From a virus, in the IMG/VR virus record IMGVR_UViG_3300027710_000078, positions 1 through 34,380 of that record: 34,380 nt of DNA; one strand, 5' to 3'. Positions within the stretch are counted from its first letter, which is position 1. Each line of letters opens with the position of its first letter. A program made the position numbers and the translations under genes. Shown piece after piece: positions 30,484-33,209 of this stretch. The notes under the pieces are model-generated. The model worked only from the letters and a program-made list of their open reading frames with translations, had not been told where the DNA came from and searched no databases.

Positions 30484-30749
30484 TAGCATTTCCACCTTGC
30501 TCTAGCTGCTTTGCCTCGTTCCCCAGTCCAGCCTGCCGACCTTGCACAAAAGCTATCATGCCTTGGGCCACTAGATTGGGGTGCTTGTAAATTAGCGTTG
30601 TTTTTGGCGTTGTATGCTTTGCGACCTGCTTCGGTCATACCTGCGCCTTCTTCTACTGATTGGTAATGACGGCCTTTGCCTTTAGTTGTCTTGGCAATAG
30701 GCTTATCGTGCTTTTCTACTGCGGCACGAATGTCATCTTTTCTACTCAT
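30483..30749 (-). CDS. DUF6321-like conserved phage protein, 88 aa
   Basis: An 88-residue basic protein with GAGMTEAGRKAYNAKNNANLQAPQ near residues 35-58 and an end with CARSAGWTGERGKAARARWKC. This pattern, including the final W-x-C, resembles the DUF6321 family of phage proteins. The two cysteines near the end might form a metal site. It is translationally coupled to both neighbours. Function not established. Confidence 0.75.
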   Translation of the reverse strand: MSRKDDIRAAVEKHDKPIAKTTKGKGRHYQSVEEGAGMTEAGRKAYNAKNNANLQAPQSSGPRHDSFCARSAGWTGERGKAARARWKC

Positions 30750-30931
30750 GCTTTTTCTTCAATGTATTTAGCGTAGGCATCTTCCAGCTTGGCTTTGCGA
30801 TCACCTTTGGCGTTTTCACGCTCAACGCTGAGTGCAATGGCTACGGCTTGTTTCTTAGGCTTGCCAGCTTTCATTTCGGCTTTAATGTTCTTGCCGACTG
30901 CTTCTGCGCTACCTGATTTGACGAGTGGCAT
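30746..30931 (-). CDS. DUF6496-like conserved phage protein, 61 aa
   Basis: A 61-residue basic protein. The core MPLVKSGSAEAVGKNIKAEM followed by AGKPKKQAVAIALSVER resembles the DUF6496 family of small phage proteins. AAAGGA lies seven bases before the ATG, making this the entry point for ribosomes into the chain of small basic genes. Its role is unknown; its position just before packaging genes suggests virion assembly or DNA handling. Confidence 0.8.
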   Translation of the reverse strand: MPLVKSGSAEAVGKNIKAEMKAGKPKKQAVAIALSVERENAKGDRKAKLEDAYAKYIEEKA

Positions 30932-30941
30932 AAATATCCTT

Positions 30942-31298
30942 TTATTTCAAGAACTTAAGTTTGTAAGTGGTAGTGTTGATAAGGTCTGCGATCTCATCAA
31001 TAATGTTTTGCAATTCGCTGTCTTGCGGCAGGTCTTGACGGGCTTCTTTAACAAAACTTTGCAAAGATTCTAGGTAGCGGATTGGGTCTTTAGGCTGGTG
31101 GTACACGCTTGGAAATGCGGTGAACTTACCGTACTTGCCCATATAGGATTCAGCAAAAGCATCCGTTAAATCAATGATGCTGTCGTAATACTTGGCGAGT
31201 GCCTTGTGTTTGGCGTAAGAATCAGTAGACCAATGGAAAAAATGGGTGTTAGTCGCTGAATGAAGCATTGTAGCTAAGAATAAAGCGCAATTTTCCAT
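30942..31298 (-). CDS. DUF5856-type protein with Dps-like residue pattern
   Basis: A 118-residue helical protein resembling the DUF5856 phage family. Residues His19, His31, Asp46 and Glu50 have the same spacing (12, 15 and 4) as His51, His63, Asp78 and Glu82 of the iron-oxidising site of E. coli Dps. The fifth Dps residue, Asp67, is replaced by Ala35. The context THFFHW and DAFAE also resembles Dps. It may be a mini-ferritin-like protein that binds iron or DNA, but it is shorter than Dps and the similarity is by eye. AAGGA precedes the ATG. Confidence 0.75.
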   Translation of the reverse strand: MENCALFLATMLHSATNTHFFHWSTDSYAKHKALAKYYDSIIDLTDAFAESYMGKYGKFTAFPSVYHQPKDPIRYLESLQSFVKEARQDLPQDSELQNIIDEIADLINTTTYKLKFLK

Positions 31299-31306
31299 AC
31301 AAATCC

Positions 31307-31684
31307 TTATTTTATGGGGGTAGTTTCCTCTATTTTATCAAGAATATCAATACAAACCAAGCAACCGCCACCTTTTTTTATTTCGCCACGCTCGATCAAT
31401 AAAACATCTATTTGCTCGTCATCGTCAAATACCCCAGCATCACCTAACGCATCCCATAGGGCCTTGATGCGGTTGTCAATGTCTTGCTTGCGTTTGTCAC
31501 GGGGGTATAAAACCACCTTCATTTCAAGCCGTGCTGATCCCAACTTGGGTACACGGTACTCGACCACATAGTTGCTAACCTGCGCCTTAAATTCTTTTCC
31601 AGCCTTGCTTATACCCATCCTATTACGGAATATGGTGCGGTAGCTGTTTACGCTAGGCGGCAGGGGTAAGTTAAGTACGATCAT
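31307..31684 (-). CDS. rusA: RusA-family Holliday junction resolvase
   Basis: A 125-residue resolvase that cuts four-way DNA junctions, probably as a dimer. RusA hallmarks are LPLPPSVNS at the start, then Asp68 and Asp70 in Q-D-I-D-N, Lys74, and the acidic cluster D87-D89 in V-F-D-D-D. It would resolve branched recombination or replication intermediates before packaging. Its first codons overlap the end of the PAPS-reductase-like gene by 14 bases. Confidence 0.93.
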   Translation of the reverse strand: MIVLNLPLPPSVNSYRTIFRNRMGISKAGKEFKAQVSNYVVEYRVPKLGSARLEMKVVLYPRDKRKQDIDNRIKALWDALGDAGVFDDDEQIDVLLIERGEIKKGGGCLVCIDILDKIEETTPIK

Positions 31685-32417
31685 TTATGTCCGATTCTGC
31701 CATATGACAGAAAATGCCACATTCAATTGATTGCTCAGTTGGGTAGTCACCAGCATCTAAAGGCAGTTCTGTAAGCCAAATACGCTCACCTTTATGTTTA
31801 AGGATTTTAGCCCCAACCGTGCGCTCAATACCTGCCATGCGGTCAAATTGTTCAGGAAAGTCGTGCCGTATCTTATTCCAATAGCCTAAACCACCCTTAA
31901 CGCACCCTATACAGTTGTTGTTTTGGTAGCCTAGCTTATACATTGCTGGCAGTTCAATACCTGCCCTGTCAATCATAGCCAAACAATCTGACTTGCCAAG
32001 TCCTTTATCTATAAGGATTGACCATAAATTAACATTGTTGTTAGCGTCAATAAAACGGTCTACACGGTCTTGTTCTTCTGCGGTGTACCCAAATACCTGC
32101 CTGTCATTAGGCAATTCAAACGCTTTTCGCATATCTTTTTTAAGGTGTACGGTACAGGGCGCACCACCAATACCTACAATATATTTACGCTTTTCAAACA
32201 CCTCGTAAATGCTGCCATTGTATTTTTCGTTTTCAATGACTTTTATTGGCTGACCGAACCATTTTTCGCAGTCTTTCATAAACCGCAAGTTGTCAGGGTG
32301 TTCTTCCTTGACATGGCAATAAACCACCTCTACTGGCGTTTTGCTTTCAGCAATAGCCAGCTTAGTTGCTACGGCACTTGCCGCACCACAGGAAAACCAC
32401 GAAATAACCCTAGTCAT
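31671..32417 (-). CDS. PAPS-reductase-like / PP-loop ATP pyrophosphatase
   Basis: A 248-residue protein of the adenine-nucleotide alpha-hydrolase (PP-loop) superfamily related to phage PAPS-reductase-like proteins. The loop reads S-C-G-A-A-S-A (residues 9-15), where classic members have SGGxDS. Cysteines 88, 169, 172 and 233 or 237 could hold an iron-sulfur cluster, as in sulfur-transfer members. The reaction may be activation of a substrate by AMP followed by sulfur or another modification of nucleic acid. The true substrate is unknown. Its start overlaps the Ref-like gene stop (ATGA). Confidence 0.8.
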   Translation of the reverse strand: MTRVISWFSCGAASAVATKLAIAESKTPVEVVYCHVKEEHPDNLRFMKDCEKWFGQPIKVIENEKYNGSIYEVFEKRKYIVGIGGAPCTVHLKKDMRKAFELPNDRQVFGYTAEEQDRVDRFIDANNNVNLWSILIDKGLGKSDCLAMIDRAGIELPAMYKLGYQNNNCIGCVKGGLGYWNKIRHDFPEQFDRMAGIERTVGAKILKHKGERIWLTELPLDAGDYPTEQSIECGIFCHMAESDINDRT

Positions 32418-32707
32418 TTAAGTAGTTCAAGTGTCTTAGCGAGTAGTGATTCTTCAGTAATGCCATATTCTGCCTCAAATCTTCTACGCCCCATTCCGTG
32501 AATACTGGTATTTGACCCCCGATGATGGTATGGGCAGAGCGGGATAACAGGGGCATCACTTCGTCTACCAGTTCTTCTAATGTGATGGAGTTCGCACCCA
32601 CAATCATCGGTTTCGTACCCAATGTGCCTGCAGAGTATGCACCCCAATCTCGCCACTCGACCATAATGTTCCTTTTTTTGTTTAGGTGTTAAATTTTCTA
32701 GCGTCAT
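32414..32707 (-). CDS. Ref-like HNH nuclease
   Basis: A 97-residue HNH-type protein resembling the nuclease domain of phage P1 Ref, a RecA-dependent DNase. Visible are C23-x-x-C26, the His-His pair 41-42 in L-H-H-I-R-R-T-G, C58-P-Y-H-H, and GMGRRRFEAEYG. The cysteine and histidine set would bind zinc and metal at the active site. It could make cuts used in recombination. Its first 26 bases overlap the end of the NUMOD4 endonuclease gene. Confidence 0.85.
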   Translation of the reverse strand: MTLENLTPKQKKEHYGRVARLGCILCRHIGYETDDCGCELHHIRRTGRRSDAPVIPLCPYHHRGSNTSIHGMGRRRFEAEYGITEESLLAKTLELLK

Positions 32708-33209
32708 AAGTTTTACTGTGCTTAATTCTTAAAATTGTAGTTTGGCCTACGCCATACAATTTAGCCAACTTTTTTGATGAACTATTTGAATTTTTTATTT
32801 CTTGCGCTTGTTGATTAGTTAATTTTGCATTGCCATTATTTTCACCACCTTGCCATGTTTCATGGTTGCGTTTGTCTAAAGCATTGTTGCTTCTAGTGTC
32901 CCAACGCAAGTTAGTTAATTTTGCATCTGCTCTTATTCCGTTGTTGTGGCAGGCTTCCATGCCTTCAGGTGCTTTACCAACAAATGCTTCTAAAACCAGC
33001 CTGTGTAAATAAAATTGTTTTCTGTAACCTTTAAAAGTAAGGTTTACTGCTGGATAGCCAACTGTGGAAATAAATGGTTTTATTACATTGCCGCCATAAG
33101 TCCTTTTGCCATATAAAGTAACGCCTTCACGGACTTTAGATCGTATGTTTCCTAAATCAGAAACTTCGTAATAATCTTCTAACCCAACAATATTTTTCCA
33201 AGATTCCAT
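32682..33209 (-). CDS. NUMOD4/HNH homing-type endonuclease
   Basis: A 175-residue homing-type endonuclease. Residues 1-50 are a NUMOD4 motif (W4, EDYYEVSDLGNIRS), 60-108 an HNH domain (His69-Arg70, H88-N89-N90, LTNLRW), and 115-165 a NUMOD-like and helix-turn-helix DNA-binding end (GGENNGNAKLT, KLAKLYGVGQTTILRIK). Such free-standing genes spread by cutting DNA that lacks them. It has its own strong AAGGGG site. Its 3' end runs 26 bases into the Ref-like gene, which suggests insertion between two once adjacent genes. Confidence 0.92.
   Translation of the reverse strand: MESWKNIVGLEDYYEVSDLGNIRSKVREGVTLYGKRTYGGNVIKPFISTVGYPAVNLTFKGYRKQFYLHRLVLEAFVGKAPEGMEACHNNGIRADAKLTNLRWDTRSNNALDKRNHETWQGGENNGNAKLTNQQAQEIKNSNSSSKKLAKLYGVGQTTILRIKHSKTYDARKFNT

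Follow-up and report, generated by a model that had tools for sequence, protein, structure and literature searches.

DUF5856, the phage protein family that includes T4 RI.-1, as a probable pared-down branch of the Dps lineage

The window considered here is the whole stretch of DNA that was analysed, a virus record of 34,380 bases. On its minus strand, an ORF that opens with the ATG at 31298 had been assigned by the first-pass annotation to the family DUF5856, and the assignment was borne out by Pfam (PF19174, E = 1.9e-26; 93.4 bits against a gathering score of 34.6). The protein also matches PHROG_858 (E = 1.8e-27), whose description, 'starvation-inducible transcriptional regulator', hints that earlier annotators had perhaps already seen a link to Dps. 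The ORF is preceded by a ribosome-binding site and flanked by two close neighbours (Table 1); the gap between its end and the next gene is 10 bases, and the lysine-rich protein encoded there has no Pfam match at E up to 0.01. Once 16 loci repeating earlier contigs (L142-L157) had been removed, a RusA homologue was counted within 60 bp upstream of the DUF5856 gene in 51 of 168 loci (the window's clade) and a homologue of the lysine-rich protein within 60 bp downstream in 113 of 189 (again the window's clade). Elsewhere in the window, positions 32682-33209 encode a protein with NUMOD4 and HNH_3, the make-up of a free-standing homing endonuclease, and this gene adjoins those for a RecA-dependent nuclease (32414-32707) and a PAPS-reductase-domain protein (31671-32417).

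Table 1. Features of the DUF5856 locus and codons of the residues discussed in the text (positions are those of the window).
Feature	Position	Strand	Basis
DUF5856 / PHROG_858 protein, 118 aa, probable Dps-like mini-ferritin	30942..31298	-	ORF, profile matches, model
His22 codon, counterpart of E. coli Dps His51 (helix A)	31233..31235	-	profile alignments
His19 codon, choice of the first-pass annotation, one turn off	31242..31244	-	conserved in 153/155
His31 codon, counterpart of Dps His63 (start of helix B)	31206..31208	-	alignment, conservation
Asp46 codon, counterpart of Dps Asp78	31161..31163	-	alignment, conservation
Glu50 codon, counterpart of Dps Glu82	31149..31151	-	alignment, conservation
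AAGGA ribosome-binding site	31304..31308	-	5 nt before the ATG, overlaps the RusA stop codon
RusA Holliday-junction resolvase, directly upstream	31307..31684	-	PF05866, E = 3.1e-12
61-aa lysine-rich protein, directly downstream	30746..30931	-	homologue within 60 bp in 113/189 loci

DUF5856 is widespread among phages: at a threshold of E up to 0.01, it was matched in 1411 of the 50,697 phage records, and its carriers include Straboviridae (the T4 relatives), Ackermannviridae, jumbo phages and environmental phages. Among 16 phage members collected by tblastn, a set obtained without any pattern containing the ligands, the invariant residues are Met1, His22, Tyr28, His31, Asp46, Glu50, Ile103 and Leu114, while His19 is found in 15. 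The same picture emerged from 155 distinct members (225 loci): His22, His31, Asp46 and Glu50 are each present in 155/155 and His19 in 153/155, so that the conservation across the family by which the earlier proposal was to be judged is indeed found; the 155/155 is not an unselected count, because the viral contig scans recruited members via motif patterns, some of which contained His22, His31, Asp46 or Glu50. Since many of the contigs are near-identical, smaller counts were taken from 33 members sharing less than 80% identity. At the position of the fifth Dps ligand (Asp67), these non-redundant members have Gly in 18 cases and Asp or Glu in 9, and the window protein has Ala35. The statement that the fifth ligand is missing is thus right for the window protein and wrong for the family, in which the loss is a trait of some clades and not of the whole.

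The distribution outside phages was approached by scanning genome contigs with motif patterns, which depends on conserved short motifs and reaches close relatives only; it gave 21 pattern matches and no relatives. Recent transfer from bacteria was set aside on this result, with which distant cellular homologues are compatible. A scan with the Salicola protein found nothing. When the Pfam DUF5856 profile was run against 14 control genomes, a match below the cut-off appeared in one, Bacillus subtilis.

Several lines of sequence evidence connect the family to Dps, a bacterial protein with a role in iron storage and in the defence of cells against peroxide. A profile of the 16 members searched against the PDB sequences has as its top match the Dps of S. 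aureus (2d5k, E = 1.3e-6), followed by many other Dps entries; in the same search, designed helical bundles reached values as good as E = 4e-6 through repeated weak matches, and further tests of homology were therefore used. A profile of 54 members also retrieved 2d5k (9.1e-6) together with other Dps proteins, and hhalign of the family against nine Dps gave E = 1.1e-6 and 3e-6. Moreover, a single member, L140, finds on its own the Dps-family protein HP-NAP in the PDB at E = 2.4e-6, with an alignment that needs no gap between the helix-A His and the Glu and with Dps as its sole find; the window protein alone reaches HP-NAP only at E = 0.24. The family of full-length phage Dps proteins, PHROG_3636, is linked in both directions, as 2 of the 4 phage Dps proteins tested match PHROG_858 (6.2e-5 and 2.4e-4) and one of the two DUF5856 members tested, again L140, matches PHROG_3636 (5.2e-6). 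In a control, the 16-member profile placed 7 of the 9 Dps above all 1829 unrelated frames, and three column-shuffled profiles failed to do so. After masking of positions 19, 22, 31, 46 and 50, two Dps still rank first and second, with E-values of only 0.049 and 0.19, which indicates that most of the Dps signal sits at the ligands. The Pfam Ferritin profile (PF00210) did not report the window protein at E up to 10, and on the relatives it gave 1/16 at 0.0081 and 0/54 at 0.01. Taken together, we regard the homology of DUF5856 to Dps as very nearly certain. A classical ferritin di-iron centre was also considered and ruled out: the ExxH motif of the intra-subunit di-iron site of classical ferritins and bacterioferritins does not occur in the conserved columns of either alignment.

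The first-pass annotation had recognised in this protein four Dps ferroxidase residues, His19, His31, Asp46 and Glu50, at exactly the 12-15-4 spacing of E. coli Dps. These residues do occur at the positions given and with those distances. The pattern H-x11-H-x14-D-x3-E is moreover uncommon by chance, being absent from 1630 non-family reading frames (100 residues or longer) in the loci of the dataset and present in 0.095% of 20,000 shuffles of the window protein. The equivalences hold for His31, Asp46 and Glu50, but not for His19, since it is His22 that aligns with His51. In fact, the alignment of the 16-member profile with 2d5k puts the His at position 22 on the His of the HW motif, makes the Dps A-B loop three residues longer, and sets His31, Asp46 and Glu50 on the Dps His, Asp and Glu; the His22 register was repeated by the 54-member profile and by hhalign to the nine Dps, and, if helix A is matched to that of E. 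coli Dps with no gap, residue 22 comes onto residue 51 by simple arithmetic. The nine plasmid and phage Dps proteins have as invariant columns Met1, His38, Trp39, Gly43, Phe46, His50, Asp65 and Glu69, which include the same four ligands. His19 was accordingly discarded as the equivalent of His51: it is replaced by Lys in SP18 and by Arg in L115, whereas His22 is invariant. Its column in the nine Dps holds His, Lys, Arg or Trp, and the position corresponds to Lys48 of E. coli Dps.

It follows that the match in spacing is not exact: the true spacing here is 9-15-4, the A-B loop being three residues shorter, and the 12-15-4 of the window protein results from this three-residue deletion together with the presence of a neighbouring His. 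A full-length loop is retained in 5 of the 155 members, such as L140 (HWGVKGVGAYSAH) and phage Cognac (HFGVTGPGSYAKH), and these five show 12-15-4 when counted from the His22 position, the other 150 being three residues short. L140 (L140:2022-2390), a DUF5856 member that keeps the full Dps A-B loop (VKG), can be regarded as a link sequence.

The window protein was modelled with AlphaFold as a four-helix bundle (pLDDT 96.4, pTM 0.89) with helices at residues 2-24, 28-56, 72-87 and 94-116. The first four Foldseek matches of the model are Dps proteins (probability 1.00, E 0.11-0.20). In VIA, the model aligns with MsDps2 at Z 13.7 (2.3 Å over 118 residues) and with E. coli Dps at Z 12.7 (model residues 1-118 on residues 30-166), with the caveat that a Z near 13 also occurs among unrelated helical bundles; identity to Dps in the structural alignments is low, about 10-15%. 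The structure prediction proposed earlier as a check thus turned out as anticipated, since among solved structures the predicted bundle of four helices is matched best by Dps and by other ferritin-like proteins; these other proteins score close behind, hence the fold by itself is not specific to Dps. A second model, that of a Tequatrovirus member with the same sequence as the DUF5856 protein of ECML-363 (pLDDT 91.6), reached Z 14.1 to MsDps2; its top Foldseek match is a different ferritin-like domain, and CopM also ranks high. In BFVD, proteins with predicted structures similar to the window model are seen in giant viruses (Pithovirus LCPAC404, Fadolivirus) and in a phage (cr106_1), where the protein is named DpsA.

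Two elements of Dps are lacking in the window model. No helix is present between residues 57 and 71, where the BC helix would lie, and for this reason DUF5856 is classed as a Dps-like branch and not as a canonical Dps. Furthermore, there are no tails, helix A beginning at residue 2 and helix D ending two residues from the C-terminus. Binding of DNA through tails was therefore ruled out, the proteins being acidic as well (pI 5.9 for the window protein and 4.4-6.1 in 16/16 members), and the earlier suggestion of DNA protection, in so far as it implies DNA binding, is not supported. The basic DNA-binding tail is an optional feature in the Dps family.

In Dps, the ferroxidase site is built by two His of one subunit, which meet the Asp and the Glu of the two-fold partner. 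In the window model His31 and Asp46 both lie in helix 28-56, 15 residues and therefore about 22 Å apart (at 1.5 Å per residue); this geometry rules out a metal site within one chain, so that any site would have to form between subunits. The first-pass annotation had taken a large distance between the residues in a predicted structure as an argument against its proposal; this does not apply, because the Dps site is shared by two subunits. Two DUF5856 subunits would then pair on a two-fold axis, and His22 and His31 of one chain would bind metal with Asp46 and Glu50 of the other, giving two sites per dimer. Metal binding at the subunit interface is very likely. The bound iron(II) would be oxidised, preferably by peroxide, and both iron and H2O2 would be removed from the infected cell, or from the DNA packed in the virion; Fenton damage late in infection may be limited in this way. 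The same four ligands could instead hold zinc or another metal. A dodecamer and the storage of iron should not be assumed, because the protein has neither tail nor BC helix and has lost some of helix C, and a hollow 12-mer storing iron is the most uncertain part of the proposal. On the whole, the mini-ferritin-like reading of the first-pass annotation gains support from the sequence profiles, the predicted fold and the conserved ferroxidase set, and DUF5856 (PHROG_858; RI.-1 or MobD.6 in T4-like phages) is probably a phage-specific, pared-down branch of the Dps lineage with iron and peroxide detoxification as its main function.

The comparison with Dps, MrgA and HP-NAP (PF00210) shows what has been kept and what has been lost. 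Common to them and DUF5856 are the four-helix bundle, the aligned His51, His63, Asp78 and Glu82, and an aromatic residue at the F/Y position of the A-B loop; in addition, some Dps proteins have, like DUF5856, an HxxH pair with a His at the His19 position. On the other hand, Dps proteins are about 150-170 aa long, whereas the window protein has 118 aa and no tails; the A-B loop carries the three-residue deletion in 150/155 members, the BC helix is absent, helix C is reduced to 16 residues, Asp67 is replaced by Ala in the window protein, and the Trp that follows the helix-A His, although kept in the window protein, is found in only 11 of the 33 non-redundant members. The full-length Dps proteins of phages, gathered in PHROG_3636 as 'DNA binding protein' (Proteus P59, Aeromonas BUCT695, Streptomyces Kenrey, Synechococcus S-SRM01), resemble DUF5856 in being phage-encoded and in the cross-matches between the two PHROGs (2/4 of those tested with PHROG_858, and L140 with PHROG_3636), but are longer (132-154 aa), have the full loop and form a separate PHROG. 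In both Grimontviridae examined the PHROG_3636 gene adjoins that of the anaerobic ribonucleotide reductase, being located directly before it (L232:347-805 and L233:341-805), an adjacency suggesting that oxygen or iron is linked to this reductase.

T4 RI.-1 (MobD.6) shares with the window protein the Pfam family, the PHROG and the four residues, and the fold recurs in the T4-like member that was modelled; it differs in an N-terminus 10 residues longer and in its location after rI, and in ten T4-like members the position of the fifth ligand is occupied by Asp, Glu or Asn. BFVD gives the RB43 member of the family the name RI.-1. In a comparison of T4 stocks, rI.-1 (MobD.6) is described as a gene of 387 bp that is frameshifted in some of them (PMC8573959), which suggests that it is dispensable in those laboratory stocks.

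The alternatives to this detoxifying protein differ in how much of the Dps relationship they accept. According to the most radical one, the four-helix bundle would resemble Dps by convergence only, and the His, Asp and Glu residues would make up a zinc or structural site. The low identity in the structural alignments (about 10-15%) and the weak Foldseek E-values (best 0.11) are what could be expected from it, but convergence leaves aside the sequence links at E of about 1e-6, obtained both with profiles and with a single member, as well as the loop signature (VKG in L140) and the ligand positions that the two families have in common, and it is highly improbable. Another explanation accepts both the Dps fold and the metal site and assigns them to lysis timing, with RI.-1 tuning lysis inhibition together with the RI antiholin, for instance as an iron- or peroxide-sensing partner. 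The genomic context in T4-like phages speaks for it, since the DUF5856 gene lies directly after a small gene in 11/11 T4-like loci, and this small gene is annotated as rI, lysis inhibition or antiholin in nine of them (unnamed in the other two). Furthermore, over-expression of rI.-1 slightly delays the collapse of lysis inhibition, although the review reporting this effect regards it as possibly non-specific (PMC6832632). Outside this group, neither the window phage nor the Ackermannviridae and jumbo phages have an annotated rI beside the gene, and RaK2 has a homologue yet, according to its authors, lacks T holin and RI. A role in lysis timing is unlikely.

A further possibility is that the mini-ferritin is packaged with the particle, either to carry iron (Ferrojan horse) or to protect the packaged DNA. 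Members of the family have been detected in two published virion proteomes (PMC10892097; PMC13119998), and a virion role for family members is possible; the storage of iron for tail parts, suggested by the first-pass annotation, would be one conceivable form of it. In CsCl-purified virions of Sajous1, gp217 was detected with 10 spectra and was modelled by Phyre2 as 'Ferritin' with 96.7% confidence (PMC10892097); this protein corresponds to the gene at 154947-155300, and its sequence, which is the same as that of the L102 member, places it in DUF5856. Among the 40 high-confidence virion proteins of the ValerieMcCarty phages are gp108 of ValerieMcCarty03 (26 spectra) and gp100 of ValerieMcCarty04 (27 spectra), again from CsCl-purified virions (PMC13119998); gp108 is of the DUF5856 type by motif, and its gene adjoins a lysis-inhibition gene. 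Against packaging, the spectra are few beside those of the capsid protein (26 versus 1126; PMC13119998), hosts deficient in TonB or FeoB were infected with similar efficiency (PMC10892097), an iron-filled cage may simply co-band with phage in CsCl, and the window gene adjoins RusA and not tail genes; packaging as the main function is accordingly quite doubtful. It may also be imagined that these elements are combined, in a miniature ferritin that assembles without BC helix or tails, is virion-borne or accumulates at lysis, and couples iron and peroxide chemistry to lysis inhibition beside the RI antiholin gene in T4 relatives. We give little credence to this combination; if true, iron or the oxidative state would set lysis timing. 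The detoxifying Dps-lineage branch is the preferred reading.

Part of this relationship is already in print, namely the resemblance of one member to ferritin (PMC10892097). Public records, for their part, contain annotated Dps proteins of full length from phages. The member concerned, Sajous1 gp217, is a DUF5856 protein that had been likened to ferritin, and 'dps' does not occur in the main text of that paper (PMC10892097). It is the present analysis that connects gp217 with DUF5856 and with RI.-1 and that supplies the ligand register; our literature searches did not find in print a description of DUF5856/RI.-1 as a Dps branch with the register His22/His31/Asp46/Glu50.

In the Pfam copy used, DUF5856 is listed as of unknown function, despite its presence in 1411 phage records out of 50,697, T4 relatives included. 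Its reading as a Dps-type metal protein would provide a biochemical role for RI.-1, an unexplained gene of a well-studied phage, and would place the handling of peroxide and iron among the functions kept by unrelated phages. Moreover, the unusually small size that DUF5856 would have for a Dps-like protein would make it a useful subject for finding out what the cage requires.
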